Part shown: positions 24,232 through 37,649 of the stretch, piece by piece | How positions within the stretch are numbered: position 1 is the first letter of the stretch | Layout: every line of letters starts with the position of its first letter | Source: Candidatus Poribacteria bacterium | Lineage (GTDB): Bacteria; Abyssobacteria; SURF-5 | Reading direction: 5' to 3' | Length of the DNA: 37,649 nucleotides | Assembly (NCBI GenBank): GCA_016215705.1 | Contig: JACRIR010000160.1 | Coordinates: forward strand, 1-37,649 | Position numbers and translations under genes: made by a program | Notes under the pieces: model-generated | The model's input: the letters and a program-made list of their open reading frames with translations, nothing else | Databases searched by the model: none | Told to the model about the DNA's origin: nothing

Positions 24232-24241
24232 AATCGGTCTC

Positions 24242-25963: not shown

Positions 25964-26100
25964 GCTACCGGCTTGTCTTCCGGAAGCTCTACGATCGTCC
26001 ACTTGTTGTTCGCAGCTTTGCGCCACAACTTGCCGAGACTGTCGACAACGTACAGATCGCCGTCGTGTGAGAAGGCTTGAGAGATTGATATTGTAGCCAT
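25960..26100 (-). CDS. Small hypothetical protein (46 aa)
   Basis: The start is ATG 26100, with AACAAAGGAGACC upstream; longer forms would cover the promoter. The sequence MATISISQAFSHDGDLYVVD reads like two beta strands with a GDLY turn, then SLGKLWRKAANNKW, a pattern seen in single blades of beta-propellers. Function unknown. It has its own promoter at 26128-26156 and leads the microprotein/nuclease group. Confidence 0.7.
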   Translation of the reverse strand: MATISISQAFSHDGDLYVVDSLGKLWRKAANNKWTIVELPEDKPVA

Positions 26101-26127
26101 ATTTGAGGTCTCCTTTGTTATCTTTTC

Positions 26128-26667: not shown

Positions 26668-26937
26668 CTATTCTACCACAGGCTTGCTTGAGCGTAGGTT
26701 CGTCCAGAGGAACATCAGGGCGAGTACGACGAGCGCGCCGGACAGGTAGCGGCGTAGATCTTCGGGAACACCGGCTTCTGAGCACATGAAGATCACGTAC
26801 GCAGCACCGACGAGCGTGAAGAACACGACGAGAGTCCAGATCTTATTTACGGCGTCGGTGATAACCGGAACGCTATTCTTGATAGGTGCGAAGGTAGACT
26901 GTAGTTTACCCTCTTTTTTTACGGCTTTTTTTGCCAT
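26668..26937 (-). CDS. Two-span membrane protein (89 aa)
   Basis: An 89-aa protein with a Lys-rich N-terminus (MAKKAVKKEGK), two hydrophobic spans (IWTLVVFFTLVGAAYVIF and YLSGALVVLALMFLWTNL) and a short polar tail. The leader AAAGGAGACCTAAA is the same as that of recT. A promoter with TTGACG-17-TATACT lies upstream. The role is unknown; small membrane proteins of this arm may alter the host envelope. Confidence 0.75.
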   Translation of the reverse strand: MAKKAVKKEGKLQSTFAPIKNSVPVITDAVNKIWTLVVFFTLVGAAYVIFMCSEAGVPEDLRRYLSGALVVLALMFLWTNLRSSKPVVE

Positions 26938-26980
26938 TTTAGGTCTCCTTTCGCTACGGCTTTATTGCCATAACACAAGC

Positions 26981-27865: not shown

Positions 27866-28145
27866 CTAGTGCTATCCCTTCGTTATTGTTTGCGGCAGCG
27901 GACATCTCAGCAGCTCTCGCGCTAGTTGCTACGACAATTTGATACGCTTCTGCGACGAGCTCCGAGTCGCCGGTGACGATCAAGAACTCTTCGCCCTGAC
28001 CGTTCTTATTGAACAGTTTGATCGCTCGACGCCGGAACGTCGCTTCTCGGCTCGATTGATAGACGCCCATCAGATAGCCGAGCCACGCGGCAAGTATGAA
28101 CGAGCCGACAATATAGGCAGCGATTATCAATATATCTCTCAACAT
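27822..28145 (-). CDS. Membrane-anchored hypothetical protein (107 aa)
   Basis: I chose ATG 28145 because AAAGGAGACCGATC lies just upstream; a longer frame would include the ribosome site. The N-terminus spans the membrane (MLRDILIIAAYIVGSFILAA...LGYLMG). The rest is a charged cytoplasmic domain with beta-type sequence (GQGEEFLIVTGDSELVAEAYQIVV) and an acidic, Asn-rich tail. Family unknown. The promoter-like region at 28169-28196 may drive it. Confidence 0.72.
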   Translation of the reverse strand: MLRDILIIAAYIVGSFILAAWLGYLMGVYQSSREATFRRRAIKLFNKNGQGEEFLIVTGDSELVAEAYQIVVATSARAAEMSAAANNNEGIALDDRTEEKQDTDRSR

Positions 28146-28164
28146 GATCGGTCTCCTTTTAGTA

Positions 28165-29083: not shown

Positions 29084-29303
29084 GCTCCCACTGGACCTCT
29101 TTCATACGATCCTGAGCCTTCTGACCGCGAGCCATAGCGACGAACTGTATGATCAGCGCGACTATTACGCCGGGGATGAAGCCTTTTATACCGCAGAACA
29201 GGAAGCACAGACCAGAGGCGAGCATGATGATCATGCACCACATAAGATCGTCGCGGCAGTTCATATACTCCGCCCGGAGCTCCATCTCTTTTTCGATCGT
29301 CAT
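29070..29303 (-). CDS. Two-span small membrane protein (77 aa)
   Basis: ATG 29303 has TTGGAG 6 nt upstream and overlaps the J-domain gene stop (ATGA); a TTG four codons earlier is part of that ribosome site. The sequence MTIEKEMELRAEYMNCRDDL leads into two hydrophobic stretches (WCMIIMLASGLCFLFCGIKG and IPGVIVALIIQFVAMA) and a charged tail. Function unknown. It is translated between two cytoplasmic proteins. Confidence 0.7.
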   Translation of the reverse strand: MTIEKEMELRAEYMNCRDDLMWCMIIMLASGLCFLFCGIKGFIPGVIVALIIQFVAMARGQKAQDRMKEVQWEHDRG

Positions 29304-29881
29304 ATTTTTCTCCAAAAGTCGTATGCTTGCTGCACTTCTTCGAACTCGCCGGGCTTGCCGCCGTTGTCAGGGTGCGCGAGATAGCGGTGATCCCGGTATG
29401 CTTGCTTCACTTCCTGAGGAGACGCGTCCGGCTTGACGCCGAGAACTTCGTACCACTGGCGCGGCTCGCGGTTAGGCGGCGGCGTGATGATACTCTCCGG
29501 TAGAGCTTTGAAGCCGGTGAACGCAGCGTCGACCATCTCCCCAGTACCATGTCTCTCAAGTGACCGGAAGGCTTGAACTGCTAGTCCGATCGCGTGAAGG
29601 TTGTCGGAGATCTTCGCATACTTATCGCAGCAGATAGCGATCTCCGAGCCCTTGCGCTTGAAGTAGACCGCCACGCCGGGATCGTCGAGATACTCGGCTT
29701 CCGATCGGCTGTATGGCTTTTTGTTACTCGATACCACGACGTCGGTCGCGCCGAGCCGTTCGAGTTCTTCGAATAGATGGTGCTGCATAGCGCGAGCGTC
29801 CATCTTGAATTGACTCTGCTGTCGAGAGCCCTTCCATCGCGGACGTCCGACCGCCCACTGTAGAGGATACGCGTCAGCCAT
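29300..29881 (-). CDS. J-domain (DnaJ-like) protein
   Basis: The last ~50 residues (142-193) are a J domain with the HPD motif at 170-172 (YLAHPDNGG), expected to stimulate host DnaK. The N-terminal 135 residues are a separate domain beginning AYPLQWAVGRPRWKGSRQQSQF, an arrangement found in a group of phage proteins that put the J domain at the C-terminus, not the N-terminus. It may recruit DnaK to remodel a host or phage replication complex. It starts in a TAATG overlap with the preceding stop and ends in an ATGA overlap. Confidence 0.88.
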   Translation of the reverse strand: MADAYPLQWAVGRPRWKGSRQQSQFKMDARAMQHHLFEELERLGATDVVVSSNKKPYSRSEAEYLDDPGVAVYFKRKGSEIAICCDKYAKISDNLHAIGLAVQAFRSLERHGTGEMVDAAFTGFKALPESIITPPPNREPRQWYEVLGVKPDASPQEVKQAYRDHRYLAHPDNGGKPGEFEEVQQAYDFWRKI

Positions 29882-30321
29882 TATTCAACATCCTCGACGT
29901 ACTCGACTTTGTGAGTGTATGGGAAGGTGATATACGTGCGCTCGCCGCCCTTCGTGTACGTGTTGCTGCGGTTGCCTTTTTCGTAGTAGACCTTTGTATT
30001 TGAGTCGTAGGCGCGACCGTCCGAGCCTTTGAAGACACTGTAGCACCGCTTGTTCTGGTACTTCATGTCATCCTGAGCCTGACCTTCGCCGATCTCAGTC
30101 CACTCGTCATCTGCGCCGGTGAGCGGCGTGAGAGCCTCGTAGTTCATGAGCTTCGTCAGGATACCGAGCGCGTAGCTCGCCGAGAAGCCTGAGTGACCCT
30201 GATCGGCGAACTTCTTGACGATCTCGATGATGTCGTCGTGCATGAGCTTGTTCTCTTCGGTAGCGTCCTCGCCCATACCGATCAGCTTCAATTCTTGTTC
30301 TGCGAATAATACTAGACTCAT
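29881..30321 (-). CDS. Conserved-looking phage hypothetical protein (146 aa)
   Basis: A 146-aa protein with LVLFAEQELKLIG near the start, DQGHSGFSASYALGILTKL and PLTGADDEWTEIG in the middle, and a beta-type C-terminus (YQNKRCYSVFKGSDGRAYD). These phrases look like a phage family commonly annotated as hypothetical. AGGGGGC precedes the ATG. The enzyme role, if any, is not visible. It stops inside the J-domain gene start (TAATG), implying coupled expression. Confidence 0.78.
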   Translation of the reverse strand: MSLVLFAEQELKLIGMGEDATEENKLMHDDIIEIVKKFADQGHSGFSASYALGILTKLMNYEALTPLTGADDEWTEIGEGQAQDDMKYQNKRCYSVFKGSDGRAYDSNTKVYYEKGNRSNTYTKGGERTYITFPYTHKVEYVEDVE

Positions 30322-32031: not shown

Positions 32032-32514
32032 CTAGACTCTCCCCATTAGAACTTGATAATCGAACTTCTTACCGAGAGCCTCGCGGATCTTCGTATGCTC
32101 CTCAGAGTAGCCGACTATCCGGTCGTCGTAAATATGAGCCTTTGCCGGTACGCTGATGAGCTCGTCGGCGAAGTTGCGCCCTTTTTCGGTGATCCGCCAA
32201 AAGCCGGAGCTCTTTTTCTCGCCTTCGACGTGCGGCTTTTTCTCGATCATCTTCCACCATCCGAGCTTCGCGTACTCCATATTGAAGTATGTCTCGCCGG
32301 ACTTCATGAGCTCGTAGACGTGTATGTAGTTGCCGGACGCCTCGCGATCAGCGGCATAGAAGCCGAAGAGGTTGATGACGATCCCGGCGTTCAGGTTGCG
32401 CTGATAGACTTTCACGAACCGGTCGCAGGCAGGGCAGTCGACGCCCTTTGCCTGATGTTCGTGCAGGTAGTCTTTGACCTCTTGCAAGGTGCTGTCGAGA
32501 GTCGGCTTGCTCAT
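32032..32514 (-). CDS. Hypothetical protein with CPAC and winged-helix-like end (160 aa)
   Basis: A 160-aa protein. Residues 27-30 are CPAC after a helical start (LQEVKDYLHEHQAKGVDCPACDRFVKVYQRNLNAG). The middle has HVYELMKSGETYFNMEYAKLGWWKMIEKK and SGFWRITEKGRNFADELIS, which read like a winged helix (recognition helix plus FWRITEKG wing). This suggests DNA binding, with a replication or transcription control role open. It starts in a TAATG overlap with the coiled-coil gene. Confidence 0.7.
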   Translation of the reverse strand: MSKPTLDSTLQEVKDYLHEHQAKGVDCPACDRFVKVYQRNLNAGIVINLFGFYAADREASGNYIHVYELMKSGETYFNMEYAKLGWWKMIEKKPHVEGEKKSSGFWRITEKGRNFADELISVPAKAHIYDDRIVGYSEEHTKIREALGKKFDYQVLMGRV

Positions 32515-33449
32515 TAGACCTTCTTCTCAGTCCAGACGCGGACACCTTCGACGGTCTTACCTTCGGCGATGGCGGCGCGGATCAGCTTCTCTACAGGCTC
32601 ACAGTATTCACGCGGCACGATCAGCGGATCGGTGATCTCGAACTTCGTGACGGTACGTGCGCCGGTCTTGACGCGGTTCTTCTCTTCGGACTCGCGCTTT
32701 TTGCGAGCAGCTTCGGCTTCTTCTTCGTCAGCCTTGCGCTGTTTTTCGCGTTCGAGACGCTCCTTCTCGGCTTCGATCTGACGAGCCTTGCGCTCATTAG
32801 CGGCTTTTTCGGCGTCGATCTTCGCCTGAGCCTCGGACTGCTCCTTGCGCTGCGCTTCGAGCTTCTCTCGTTCGATACGCTGCTCTTCTTGCTCGATCAG
32901 GTAGGCTTTGCGATCCTGCAGGCGGTTGATCGATACAGTGAAGGCGGCTTTGACGTCCGGCAGTTTTTGATCCTCGGTCTTGAGCTCACCGTAGAGCTTC
33001 TTGAACCGCTCGCCTTCGTCCTGCACTTCGTCGACCGTCTTGAACCGGTAGGTGTCGCTGACGCTCAGTGTGACGCGTAGCACAATCTTTTCGACGCGCT
33101 CACGCTCTTCACGAGCGATACGCTCCTGCTCTTCTTGATAGGTGAGGATCTTCTGACCGAGATCAGTCTGACCTTCGTCCAGTGGTAGCAGGATCTCGGC
33201 TTCTTTCGTCATGATAGCCTTCTTCACCTCGTCGAACTGACGAGTGATGTCGAGCCGGGTATCCTGTACGAGTTTGCGATGACCGGTGATCTCTTTTTTG
33301 AGCGCGACCGCTGCTGCGGCTTCGCGTTCGTTCGTGACGGTCTGAGCTTCGGCGCGCGCCTTCAAGTCCTGCGACTTGATTAGGAACGGCGAGATCTCTC
33401 CGACCATTTTTTCTTGTACTACTGCTAGTGCTTTTTCGTCTGTCGACAT
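32514..33449 (-). CDS. Long coiled-coil protein of the RecT/YqaJ module (311 aa)
   Basis: I chose ATG 33449 because AAAGGAGACCTAAA lies just upstream. Most of the 311 residues are charged helices (EEQERIAREERERVEKI..., EKERLEREKQRKADEEEAE). The C-terminus (KFEITDPLIVPREYCEPVEKLI...EGVRVWTEKK) resembles the end of the DUF1351-type phage proteins found beside RecT and YqaJ genes. Its likely job is with the recombination pair, perhaps as a DNA-binding partner. It has a clear promoter at 33492-33520. Confidence 0.8.
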   Translation of the reverse strand: MSTDEKALAVVQEKMVGEISPFLIKSQDLKARAEAQTVTNEREAAAAVALKKEITGHRKLVQDTRLDITRQFDEVKKAIMTKEAEILLPLDEGQTDLGQKILTYQEEQERIAREERERVEKIVLRVTLSVSDTYRFKTVDEVQDEGERFKKLYGELKTEDQKLPDVKAAFTVSINRLQDRKAYLIEQEEQRIEREKLEAQRKEQSEAQAKIDAEKAANERKARQIEAEKERLEREKQRKADEEEAEAARKKRESEEKNRVKTGARTVTKFEITDPLIVPREYCEPVEKLIRAAIAEGKTVEGVRVWTEKKV

Positions 33450-33491
33450 TTTAGGTCTCCTTTTCATTATCGCGAAGTATCGCTAGTGATT

Positions 33492-33520: not shown

Positions 33521-34169
33521 GCGGTTTATATTCTTTGATGAACTTGACTTGCTCGTCTACCTCACCGATGAAGTTCGCCACGTCGACAGCGAGATCGTCG
33601 ATGTACTTCTCGTCACGCTCGACGCGCATGATTATACACTGCGACGCTTCGGGGAAGTCCGGGTCGAACATGATGACGATCGCGTACTTGTAGCCTGTCA
33701 CCCATAGCTGACCTTGCACCTGAGCCCGGTACTCGCGCGGCAGTTTGCCGGTCTTCAAGGCTTCGTAGTGGTTCGCGCTGTTGAAGCACTTGACCTCTAC
33801 TGTAAATAGCCCCACTTCGTCGCTCACGCGATCCGGCGACGCGCCGACGTTCAAGAAGGCGTGTTTGAACATGCCGCACTTCCGGATATTCAATTCAGGG
33901 TAGCGCAGCATAAGCTCGACGACCGCGAGCTCTTCGGTGTCGTGACCCCAGTCGGTGAACGCGTTACCCTGAAAGCGTGTCGGAGTCTTGCCGGTGAGCT
34001 GCTCTAGCGCGAGCTGCGTCTTGTAGTTGCGCCGGGCAGACGCTTCGCTACCGTCGCGCGTCCGGGCGAGTATATTGTTGAACGCGGACGCAGTAGGTAC
34101 GCCGAGCCGGGCAAGATCCCACTCCGGCGTATTCTGTTCGATCTGCAGCTCTTCGCCTAGCAGGATCAC
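33510..34169 (-). CDS. YqaJ-type (lambda-exonuclease-like) 5'-3' exonuclease
   Basis: A 219-aa PD-(D/E)xK exonuclease. Seen motifs are WGHDTEE (E80 region), GASPDRV (D113), FTVEVKC (E125, K127) and YRAQVQGQLWVTG (Q150, Q152), the order of lambda exonuclease and YqaJ proteins. It would chew the 5' strand of double-strand ends so the RecT/Bet protein can load and anneal. The start overlaps the recT stop (ATGA), so the pair is co-translated. Confidence 0.92.
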   Translation of the reverse strand: MILLGEELQIEQNTPEWDLARLGVPTASAFNNILARTRDGSEASARRNYKTQLALEQLTGKTPTRFQGNAFTDWGHDTEELAVVELMLRYPELNIRKCGMFKHAFLNVGASPDRVSDEVGLFTVEVKCFNSANHYEALKTGKLPREYRAQVQGQLWVTGYKYAIVIMFDPDFPEASQCIIMRVERDEKYIDDLAVDVANFIGEVDEQVKFIKEYKPLAL

Positions 34170-35101
34170 TTCTTGAGCTCCTTCAACCTCTCGGCGATTG
34201 CCGGAGCTGCGCGCTTCTTATCTTCGACAGACATGCCGTCCATGAGCTGCTTCATCTCTGTAGCAGACTTGACTTCTTTGATGTTGCTCTCAATGTCAGG
34301 CGTAACGATGTCGCCGTCGATCGGTTCGGCGCGCTCCATCTCTTCGGCGACGTACATGCCACCACAAGCCGGGAAGGCTGCGCGGAGAGCTTGCACTCGT
34401 GCGACCTTCGCGATCATAGTCTTCGGCTTGCCGCCGTCCGGCACGTTCTCGACTTCGCCGGTCGGACGATTGTCTTTGTAGATCTTCTTCTCTTTGGTAG
34501 CGTTTGCAGGCTTCCAGAGGTTTTTGCCGGTGTCGTACTCATCGAAGAACGCGGTCGCGTAGCTCGTAGTCAGTACGCCCTGCACGACTTTATGAACGCC
34601 GACGGTGCAGGATATGATCTTATTGTAGTCAGGCTCGCCGAAGCCATCCTCTTGACTCTTCATAGCGAACTCGTACTTCGGCTCAGTGAAGCCGCCGAAG
34701 CTGCCGGTACTCTCGGCAATACGCGTCAGGGCGTCGATACCAGTGATGACCGTCCACTCCTTCTTCTCTTGCCACTGACCGTCTGAGTCTTTGAACTTCT
34801 TTTTGAACGGTATAGCGTAGATCTGCTTCTGCAGGCGCACGTCGATACCGGCGAGCTTTGCCTGAGCGACGACGAAGTACATGATCGTATCGTCGGCTTC
34901 TTCGTAGAACTCGCCGAAGATCGACTTCTTCCATAATTTGTATACTTGGATCGGATCGGCTGCACCGGCAGGCATGAACTCGCCGAACCGTTTGAGGATC
35001 TGCGTCTCAGCTTCTACGGTGCTTGCTGCCACCTGATCTTCTTGACGGCGAGCGAGAGCGTTAGCTTTGCGCGCCTCTGTTGCTTTTGTAGTATCTGGCA
35101 T
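34166..35101 (-). CDS. RecT/Bet-family single-strand annealing protein
   Basis: I chose ATG 35101 with AAAGGAGACCTAAA upstream; a longer frame covers its promoter. The 311-aa protein has the Bet/RecT core: YFVVAQAKLAGIDVRLQKQIYAIPF, ITGIDALTRIAESTGSFGG, CTVGVHKVVQGVLTT and KVARVQALRAAFPACGGMYVAEEM. It anneals complementary strands produced by the exonuclease, joining genome ends into concatemers. Early position and a strong promoter (35124-35152) fit an abundant recombination protein. The C-terminus is Lys/Glu-rich. Confidence 0.93.
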   Translation of the reverse strand: MPDTTKATEARKANALARRQEDQVAASTVEAETQILKRFGEFMPAGAADPIQVYKLWKKSIFGEFYEEADDTIMYFVVAQAKLAGIDVRLQKQIYAIPFKKKFKDSDGQWQEKKEWTVITGIDALTRIAESTGSFGGFTEPKYEFAMKSQEDGFGEPDYNKIISCTVGVHKVVQGVLTTSYATAFFDEYDTGKNLWKPANATKEKKIYKDNRPTGEVENVPDGGKPKTMIAKVARVQALRAAFPACGGMYVAEEMERAEPIDGDIVTPDIESNIKEVKSATEMKQLMDGMSVEDKKRAAPAIAERLKELKK

Positions 35102-35102
35102 T

Positions 35103-35549
35103 TTAGGTCTCCTTTGCCTTATCATTATACGCTCCTGTTTTTCGTGCGTCAAGCCTGCGATCTAACTCCGCCCCGGCTTGCACGTCCGCCCAGTGGTGAC
35201 GCTTCACGTCCTCGTCAATGAACGCGCCTTGCTTCTCCGCCTGATGACCTTTGAAGTGCCGGACGTATAGTCCTGCTACCGGCGCGACGTAACGGTGCTT
35301 GAACGCAGCCTGCAGCCGGTCGATAGCCGCCATACTGTCGCACATGATCAAGCACTCCGCGACGTGAGCTGCGCGAGCGAGCTCGACTGCAGCCCGGAGA
35401 CCGACGTACTCGGCGTCCGTTGAGTTCGTGAAGCCGTCGCAGTGATCGACCGACCAGTCTTTGAAGCCTTTGTCAGTGACGACGACGAGACAGTATGTAC
35501 CGAGCCCGGAGCGATCGTCGAACGCGGCGTCAGTATAGATCTTGAGCAC
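35103..35549 (-). CDS. rnhA: Ribonuclease H (type I-like)
   Basis: I chose GTG 35549: it overlaps the previous TAG (TAGTG) and has GGAG 8 nt upstream, giving 148 aa, the normal RNase HI size. A start further upstream would add 37 unsupported residues lying inside the neighbour. Catalytic positions are KIYTDAAF (D7), TDAEYVGL (E47), CDSMAA (D71) and HHWADVQA (D122). It would remove RNA from RNA-DNA hybrids during replication. Its last codons carry the recT promoter. Confidence 0.87.
   Translation of the reverse strand: MLKIYTDAAFDDRSGLGTYCLVVVTDKGFKDWSVDHCDGFTNSTDAEYVGLRAAVELARAAHVAECLIMCDSMAAIDRLQAAFKHRYVAPVAGLYVRHFKGHQAEKQGAFIDEDVKRHHWADVQAGAELDRRLDARKTGAYNDKAKET
35124..35152 (-). promoter_or_regulatory. 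Strong leftward promoter for recT
   Basis: TTGACG and a perfect TATAAT are 17 bp apart, with AAAACAGGAGCG directly before the -10. It is read inside the RNase H coding end, about 23 nt before the recT ATG. Confidence 0.85.
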
Positions 35550-36274: not shown

Positions 36275-36372
36275 TATCGACGACCGCGCTTCTGCTTGCG
36301 GATCTTACGATCGCGAAGCTGCATACGCATACCCTTACGTGGTATCCCTTTGGCTGGTGCGTGAGCAGTCAT
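36274..36372 (-). CDS. 32-aa highly basic peptide
   Basis: A 32-aa frame, MTAHAPAKGIPRKGMRMQLR then DRKIRKQKRGRR, with 13 Arg/Lys. It sits between two genes in perfect TAATG overlaps, which argues strongly for translation. Such a peptide could bind RNA, DNA or the ribosome. It is too short for most gene finders. Confidence 0.65.
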   Translation of the reverse strand: MTAHAPAKGIPRKGMRMQLRDRKIRKQKRGRR

Positions 36373-36554
36373 TACAGGCTCTCTTTCTGTACGAGAACTT
36401 CGTAGCCGAGCTGCTTCATTTTGTTGACTGTAGGCATTGTCAGAGTTTTAGTACCGGCGATCCGAGCGAATACTACGGCTGCGTCGTTCACAGGGTAGAT
36501 TGTCTTGTTGCCGAATACGCTTGTTACTCGTACGATTGCTATTTGTGCTTTCAT
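36372..36554 (-). CDS. First leftward gene: small conserved-looking protein (60 aa)
   Basis: ATG 36554 has AAGGAGACC upstream; longer frames run into the leader. The 60-aa product includes VTSVFGNKTIYPVNDAAVVFARIAGTKTLT, a phrase seen in a widespread small phage/plasmid family of unknown function. As the first gene behind the strong promoter at 36619-36647, it will be made very early. The ribosome-site sequence GAGACCTA is a possible target of the small RNA encoded just upstream on the other strand. Confidence 0.78.
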   Translation of the reverse strand: MKAQIAIVRVTSVFGNKTIYPVNDAAVVFARIAGTKTLTMPTVNKMKQLGYEVLVQKESL

Positions 36555-36618
36555 CTGGGTAGGTCTCCTTCGATGATAGTTAGATTGTTTTTTGTGCTGC
36601 ACTGCTGCAACATCCATT

Positions 36619-36651: not shown

Positions 36652-36680
36652 TTTTTTTCATCTGGTAAGTGGTGTATAAT
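36652..36680 (+). promoter_or_regulatory. Rightward promoter for candidate small RNA
   Basis: A perfect TATAAT at 36675-36680 is preceded by GTG; the -35 position is a T-run (TTTTTT) and poor. It is divergent from the first leftward promoter. Confidence 0.5.
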
Positions 36681-36686
36681 CTACTG

Positions 36687-36755
36687 CAGACCGGAGTCAT
36701 TAGGAGCAGCGAAATAGGTCTCGCCTCTCTGACCACTCCGGCATTTTAGTTTTAT
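36687..36755 (+). ncRNA. Candidate antisense small RNA (about 70 nt)
   Basis: No open frame is seen here. CCGGAGT (36691-36697) pairs with ACTCCGG (36735-36741), and a U-rich tail follows (CATTTTAGTTTTAT), like an intrinsic terminator closing a structured RNA. Inside, GGTC/GACC can form a second stem. The RNA carries TAGGTCTC (36715-36722) and GGCATTTTAG (36740-36749). These are complementary to GAGACCTA and CTAAAATGCC in the ribosome-site/start region of recT, with partial matches to other leftward genes. Expression is not proven. Confidence 0.5.
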
Positions 36756-36815
36756 AGGGGTTATGTCTATTTTCTTACATCTATATTGTTCACGCAGGCG
36801 CATACTACTGACATT

Positions 36816-36908
36816 ATGAGCGAACTTATACATGAGATCTTAGAAGAGTGGAAGGATCAGGTACGCACGATCCGGCACTTCGGCGTGTCTCAGAAGGGTC
36901 AACGATGA
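36816..36908 (+). CDS. Possible 30-aa peptide
   Basis: MSELIHEILEEWKDQVRTIR followed by HFGVSQKGQR: an amphipathic helix with a basic tail. There is no clear ribosome site, which weakens the call, but its stop overlaps the next ATG (ATGA) and codons look like those of the phage. It lies in the control region between the two small RNAs. Confidence 0.42.
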   Translation: MSELIHEILEEWKDQVRTIRHFGVSQKGQR

Positions 36909-36991
36909 GAGACTTCTCTATAGAGCGAGTGCTCGTGATTGCTATTCTGGTGATCCTAGTTATCTACGCGGCTACAAAGCTACTCGGATAA
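36905..36991 (+). CDS. Possible 28-aa single-span membrane peptide
   Basis: MRDFSIERVLVIAILVILVI followed by YAATKLLG: a charged N-terminus and one hydrophobic span. AGAAGGGTC gives a fair ribosome site within the previous frame. It recalls the tiny membrane peptides many phages make early. Coding is plausible but not proven. Confidence 0.5.
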   Translation: MRDFSIERVLVIAILVILVIYAATKLLG

Positions 36992-37071
36992 TCAAAGACT
37001 CTTAGAACCCTTTATCGTGATTACTAGATTGAAGACCGTTAGAAGGTTTTTTAATAAGTAACGAGAAAAGG

Positions 37072-37101
37072 TTGTAAAAGTTCGAAGCAATAGGGTATAA
37101 T
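37072..37101 (+). promoter_or_regulatory. Rightward promoter for second small RNA
   Basis: TTGTAA and a perfect TATAAT are 18 bp apart. The start would fall near 37108, just before the first GTTGAAGATAGT. Confidence 0.7.
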
Positions 37102-37107
37102 ACCATC

Positions 37108-37174
37108 CGTTGAAGATAGTACCTTATGGTCTACAAATGACCCCGAAGAAGTCACTCCGTCGAGTGGCTTTTTT
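37108..37174 (+). ncRNA. Second candidate small RNA or attenuated leader (about 67 nt)
   Basis: Between a good promoter and a strong terminator there is no open frame of note. The RNA can form GGTC-TACAAAT-GACC (37128-37142) before the terminator stem. It begins with GTTGAAGATAGT, a sequence repeated 169 nt downstream in the leader of the late operon. It may be a regulatory RNA or an attenuated transcript of the late operon. Confidence 0.55.
37149..37174 (+). terminator. Strong intrinsic terminator
   Basis: AAGTCACTC-CGTC-GAGTGGCTT forms a 9-bp stem with one G-U pair and is followed by a T-run, the standard terminator layout. It ends the second small RNA and shields the late promoters from upstream reading. 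Confidence 0.85.
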
Positions 37175-37278
37175 CGTATGTTACCCCCACTTATCGCGAC
37201 CACTGAGTTGTGAGCCGTTTTAGTTCGCCGGTTCTTGAATACGCGTCCGGCTCAGGTTACGTTATGGACTGGCTATTG

Positions 37279-37307
37279 TTGAAGATAGTCAGCTCAAACA
37301 CTATAGA
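37279..37307 (+). promoter_or_regulatory. Candidate rightward late-operon promoter (distal)
   Basis: TTGAAG, within the second GTTGAAGATAGT repeat, and TATAGA are 17 bp apart. The other copy of the repeat also has a weak -10-like TACAAA 16 bp downstream. Confidence 0.45.
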
Positions 37308-37388: not shown

Positions 37389-37649
37389 ATGGACTCAACA
37401 ACTACAACACCCGAAGACCGCGCGTGGTTTCACGAAGAAGTCTCGGTACAGGTAGAACAAGACAACAGGGCGTGGCTCGATACCATGCTCGAAATGAATA
37501 AGGCGGAACTCGTCAATTATGCCGTCTTCCAGTACGCCGTACCGGAAGCAGCCGCCGAAGCCGTCGGTCGCAACGATCTGATCTCGATGATCGCCGTAGC
37601 CAACAAAGCCGGGGGCGGACAATCGGTAGCAAATACCGAATACCTTTAC
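37389..37649 (+). CDS. Unknown phage protein, N-terminal part (continues at position 1)
   Basis: ATG 37389 follows AAGGAAG and opens a frame that runs off the window end and continues exactly at position 1 to the stop at 582, for 233 aa in total. The bases after 37508 repeat 1-141. The N-terminus is MDSTTTTPEDRAWFHEEVSV, then an acidic helix (QDNRAWLDTMLEMNKAELVN). It is the first gene of the rightward operon. Family unknown. Confidence 0.85.
   Translation, partial: MDSTTTTPEDRAWFHEEVSVQVEQDNRAWLDTMLEMNKAELVNYAVFQYAVPEAAAEAVGRNDLISMIAVANKAGGGQSVANTEYLY
37509..37649. repeat. Terminal overlap, right copy (identical to 1-141)
   Basis: These 141 bases duplicate the window start exactly and should be counted once. 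Removing one copy gives a 37,508-bp circle. Confidence 0.95.

Follow-up and report, generated by a model that had tools for sequence, protein, structure and literature searches.

What does the short stretch between the late and early genes of this phage encode? The window, the whole 37,649-nt stretch of DNA that was analysed, is a complete circular phage contig with bases 1–141 repeated directly at 37509–37649. It was binned in a 5.47-Mb metagenome assembly, which need not be that of the host. Late genes, including those for terminase, portal and capsid, are located on the plus strand, and early genes, encoding RecT-like, RecE-like, RNase H and RusA-like proteins, on the minus strand. Neither an integrase nor a repressor was found among the phage proteins scanned, a non-exhaustive set. 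A Tad3-family protein, a type I Thoeris inhibitor (Pfam E-value 1.5e-38), is encoded at 29881–30321 on the minus strand and is adjoined by a DnaJ-domain protein (29300–29881). The locus in question lies on the plus strand between the late and early genes, and the main early promoter (TTGACA-17-TATAGT, 36647–36619, minus strand, 11 of 12 consensus matches) adjoins it back-to-back. The original prediction had placed here, divergently beside the main early promoter, a candidate antisense RNA against the ribosome sites of several early genes; the sequence observations behind it and all of its coordinates proved correct on recheck. We consider that the locus probably encodes a ~70-nt trans-acting antisense RNA that lowers the translation of promoter-proximal early genes (probability about 0.68).

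The proposed RNA (36687–36756, plus strand) is a single long hairpin followed by a U-rich tail. The folding energy of 36686–36760 is −23.1 kcal/mol (shuffle z −2.0; 5 of 200 shuffles were equally good), which agrees with the ~70-nt structured stretch with a U-rich end that had been predicted. The hairpin comprises an outer stem CCGGAGT/ACTCCGG (36691–36697/36735–36741), likely also the terminator stem, and an apical loop at 36713–36720 that holds AATAGGTC, and then continues into CATTTTAGTTTTATA; the tail, GGCATTTTAGTTTTATA, occupies 36740–36756. The apical-loop seed TAGGTCTC (36715–36722, plus strand) is complementary to the early-leader sequence GAGACCTA. Its first six nucleotides are unpaired at ≥0.97, and the last two are paired in the loop-closing stem. 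A TATAAT box is present at 36675–36680, as predicted, but the −35 region is poor (a T-tract at 36652–36658) and the promoter is absent from a scan requiring 9 of 12 consensus positions. The putative promoter is suggested only by the box itself and its conserved position in related phages. A tRNA on the opposite strand, considered for a tRNA-Ser-like D-arm, was rejected, as ARAGORN finds none. Downstream of the RNA, ORFs of ~27 amino acids with a single membrane span were observed in the window (36816–36992, plus strand; MRDFSIERVLVIAILVILVIYAATKLLG) and in the related phage G192 (MRLFLIIVGSLVAAWIIIFKVIPLLFS; L025 minus strand, ~4155–4072).

The window contains the sequence TAGGTCTC five times, where 1.1 copies would be expected; none of 100 shuffles reached five. 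One copy is the RNA loop and four are complements of leaders at 36560, 35104, 33452 and 26940, confirming the predicted exact complementarity to four early leaders; CATTTTAG occurs four times against 0.55 expected. The first target, on the minus strand like all the others, is the gene for a 60-aa early protein (36372–36567), with leader GGAGACCTACCCAGATG at 36560–36567 and start at 36554. The second encodes the RecT-like annealing protein (34166–35111; leader 35104–35111, within AAAGGAGACCTAAAATG; start 35101), the third a 311-aa early protein with a weak exonuclease-family match (32514–33459; leader 33452–33459; start 33449), and the fourth an 89-aa early protein (26668–26947; leader 26940–26947; start 26937). 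A probable weaker target is the leader GAGACCTC (26105–26112, 7 nt paired) of an ORF starting at 26100, and GAGACC offers possible weak targets of 6 nt at 28150–28155 and 24236–24241, before starts at 28145 and 24231. The three longest targets are identical and read AAGGAGACCTAAAATG, which identifies the target as the Shine-Dalgarno sequence plus spacer. The fourth leader has GGAGACCTA in common with them, and these shared leaders account for the enrichment of TAGGTCTC. In addition, the 60-aa early protein (36372–36554) has an invariant KTLT core and conserved counterparts in at least six further phage loci. Repeated promoter cassettes lie immediately upstream of several target genes, and a repeated promoter-spacer motif, AAAACAGNAGCGTAYAAT, probably an operator, is found in several early promoters (36633, 35138, 33506 and 23779, minus strand). 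Within the window genome alone, the match between loop and leaders has a P value of ~0.01–0.045, which is only moderately surprising; relatives were therefore needed to decide.

Three IMG/VR contigs were used as relatives, namely G192 (L012/L025), G193 (L013/L026/L043) and G195 (L027/L035/L036), whose late proteins are 50–70% identical to those of the window phage. The 60-aa early protein is retained in G192 and G193. Named phages, species genomes and a set of 192 related genomes were searched with RecT, terminase, portal and capsid proteins and with the 60-aa early protein, and none yielded a near relative. Loci that have the promoter motif, or a terminase alone, in common with the window have no early region in common with it, and no such RNA was seen in the distant phage MW202497. 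All three relatives carry, next to the early promoter, a divergently oriented unit consisting of an AT-rich −10-like box (TACTAT, TATAAT or AT-rich) followed by a ~50–70-nt hairpin RNA. The four RNAs cannot be aligned by sequence and their alignment yields no consensus structure, so their homology rests on place and plan. Related forms of AAAACAGNAGCGTAYAAT occur in G192, G193 and G195, on the opposite strand in G193.

Other features were observed in these loci. A second short unit lies upstream of the late genes in the window (37072–37290, plus strand), G193 (L026 2374–2590) and G195 (L035 minus strand, ~56 and ~202). It is composed of a promoter, a 12-nt motif where the RNA is predicted to begin, a strong terminator and, 146–169 nt further downstream, an exact second copy of the motif. 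Each phage has its own version of the motif (GTTGAAGATAGT, GTTTGATTGGGC and TTGAACTGGGAC), the same in both copies, and the paired copies resemble the paired nut/boxB sites of antitermination. G192 has a late-side terminator-like hairpin (L025 minus strand, ~3220) whose loop AGTCTCCT is complementary to AGGAGAC of the G192 leaders, possibly by chance, and a protein with a repeated ATSGxxxAPS-type motif (L025 8020–8250, plus strand). The window carries GGGGTTATGTCT where G193 has a tRNA-Trp gene, but no tRNA.

The leader motifs differ across the four phages (GGAGACCTA, GGAGACCA, GGAACCAC and GGAGAGCT), and the loops differ with them. Early leaders read AAAGGAGACCACAA onward in G192, AAAGGAACCAC onward in G193 and AAGGAGAGCTAAAAATG in G195, and the corresponding apical loops are TTGGTC(TC), (G)TGGT(TCC) and (TA)AGCT(CTC). 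The loop/leader complements are TAGGTCTC/GAGACCTA in the window, TGGTCTC/GAGACCA in G192, GTGGTTCC/GGAACCAC in G193 and AGCTCTC/GAGAGCT in G195. In a 4.5-kb stretch of G193, GGAACCAC is confined to three leaders and, as its complement, the loop. At the level of sequence, loop and leaders thus change together across phages. The original prediction had named changes of its two segments without matching leader changes as an outcome that would speak against it; the loop segment changes jointly with the leaders in the three relatives, which supports loop pairing in the early ribosome sites. The second proposed targeting segment, GGCATTTTAG (36740–36749), is indeed complementary to CTAAAATGCC, which lies at the recT start, but the tails of the other RNAs lack a clear cognate-specific leader complement, and this part of the predicted ribosome-site pairing was rejected. 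The complementarity of GGCATTTTAG is probably incidental, and the segment is probably the U-rich tail of the terminator.

The best leader complement is the apical loop in all four phages. The leaders hit by RNA k-mers were 4 of 23 in the window (8-mer), 2 of 7 in G192 (7-mer), 3 of 5 in G193 (8-mer) and 3 of 12 in G195 (7-mer); non-cognate pairs of RNA and leaders gave at most one leader for 8-mers and at most two for 7-mers. Reversed, unreversed-complement and sense controls gave 0, except for one case of 2. Loop-anchored dinucleotide shuffles yielded P values of 0.0018, 0.0059, 0.0005 and 0.0057 for the window, G192, G193 and G195, and the three relatives alone gave a Fisher P of ~3e-6. As the hairpins had been delimited by eye, the test was repeated blind along a 300-nt stretch of the divergent strand. 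The loop again gave the best match in four of four phages, its offsets from the early −35 being 67, 75, 53 and 75 nt, with individually modest P values (0.045, 0.31, 0.027 and 0.105, in the same order) and a Fisher P of ~0.03 for the three relatives before counting the positional agreement. The true significance lies between ~3e-6 (loop-anchored) and ~0.03 (blind), in a sample of four phages of which the window and G192 are not fully independent, since they share the GGTCTC core. An automated scan of the collected loci for loops antisense to at least three leaders found the window and G193; it skips ORF-covered stretches, so that G195 was missed and G192 appears with two leaders. Its other matches were a trivial anti-Shine-Dalgarno sequence (L112), AAAGGAG (L087) and a remainder similar to the reversed control.

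An ordinary terminator or leader hairpin, complementary to the leaders by chance and through a repeated ribosome-site cassette, would have a U-rich tail as seen here. The tRNA-Trp gene that immediately follows the G193 hairpin RNA (L026 1814–1890, plus strand) and the blind-scan P values, weak one by one, are also in line with this explanation. It is nevertheless improbable, because the loops match the changed leaders in all four phages and because the G195 RNA faces a convergent gene (L035 628–829) and so cannot simply be its leader. We likewise regard it as unlikely that the shared sequence is a DNA operator for a phage regulator, situated both in the early leaders and in the gap separating the divergent promoters, and acting without RNA pairing. 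The motif does recur beside early promoters, and the separate repeated AAAACAGNAGCGTAYAAT shows that the phage uses repeated sites, whereas a DNA site would need neither the antisense orientation nor the apical-loop position of the promoter-side copy in four of four phages, nor a leader motif that always overlaps the Shine-Dalgarno sequence shortly before the start codon.

In the reading that we favour, transcription of the antisense RNA would diverge from that of the main early promoter, and 6–8 nt of the apical loop of the RNA, around the core GGUCUC, would pair with the spacer and the 3' half of the Shine-Dalgarno sequence in the mRNAs starting at 36554, 35101 (recT), 33449, 26937 and probably 26100. 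By analogy with the RNAIII and c4 RNAs, blocked 30S binding would be the natural outcome, and the early operons may be turned down jointly. The RNA appears to draw on regulatory DNA that also serves the early promoter, and so could silence residual early mRNA once that promoter is repressed. We infer that the RNA is transcribed, pairs in the cell and represses its targets, with a timing that may fit an early-to-late switch or immunity. Across the four phages, calculated duplex energies are −9.9 to −12.3 kcal/mol, with 2.3–5.8 kcal/mol for loop opening and 0.7–3.7 kcal/mol for target opening, and pairing is predicted to be energetically reasonable in each. Against the antisense RNA stand the shortness of a 7–8-nt pairing and the weak −35 boxes. 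The early mRNAs could conversely act as a sponge that titrates a small RNA whose main target is a host or late gene, given the same site in several early leaders and GAGACC in the endolysin leader (22216). We consider this very unlikely; the sites overlap the ribosome site, as repression would predict, and no alternative target is known.

As in trans-acting antisense sRNAs generally, the proposed RNA is complementary to the ribosome sites of several distant mRNAs, and compensatory seed/target change is seen among the four phages. The closest likeness is to the c4 antisense RNA of P1/P7 (RF01695), a ~77-nt phage RNA whose loops pair around the ribosome-binding site of a phage mRNA, and whose loop and target take different forms in P1 and P7, which sets heteroimmunity (PMC5320573, PMC12197685); it is reported to block ribosome binding (PMC12197685). 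The proposed RNA is like c4 in being a phage RNA with predicted loop pairing at a ribosome site and a loop and target that differ between phages. However, c4 has three stem-loops, two of them pairing, is processed out of a longer transcript by RNase P and targets the ant mRNA, whereas the proposed RNA has a single long hairpin in the window, one pairing loop per phage, its own promoter-like box, a terminator-like end and several targets. RF01695 gave no gathering match in the window or in L025/L026, where a tRNA was the sole Rfam hit, and with the E-value relaxed it still failed to match the window region, G195 and G193; the proposed RNA matches no Rfam family. The sar RNA of P22 (68–69 nt) also blocks translation of a phage mRNA, and lambda OOP (77 nt) is a phage antisense RNA acting on phage development (PMC12197685). 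The listed target of sar is the single ant mRNA, and OOP acts in cis on the cII mRNA; in contrast, the proposed RNA would be directed at no fewer than four genes elsewhere in the genome, up to 10 kb away and non-overlapping. RNAIII of S. aureus is a long chromosomal RNA. Its C-rich hairpin loops stop the translation of several mRNAs by binding to their Shine-Dalgarno regions, and blocked 30S binding was demonstrated experimentally (PMC2837412). RNAIII, however, serves host virulence genes, is not phage-encoded and does not co-vary with the ribosome sites of a phage.

No phage RNA aimed at several of its own early operons was found described in the freely accessible literature, in which the phage antisense RNAs against phage genes silence one gene each. 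Multi-operon targets and a co-varying loop set the proposed RNA apart among phage antisense RNAs; here, one RNA would reach several operons through a ribosome-site code that co-evolves with its loop. Loop-swap experiments are predicted to give clear outcomes, and the signature of a loop complementary to repeated leaders may allow RNA regulators of uncultured phages to be found by sequence alone. A further, more tentative suggestion is that the RNA is a master repressor, a single hairpin that reads the ribosome-site code alongside protein control while the code drifts with the loop. If so, the drifting code would also define RNA-based immunity groups.
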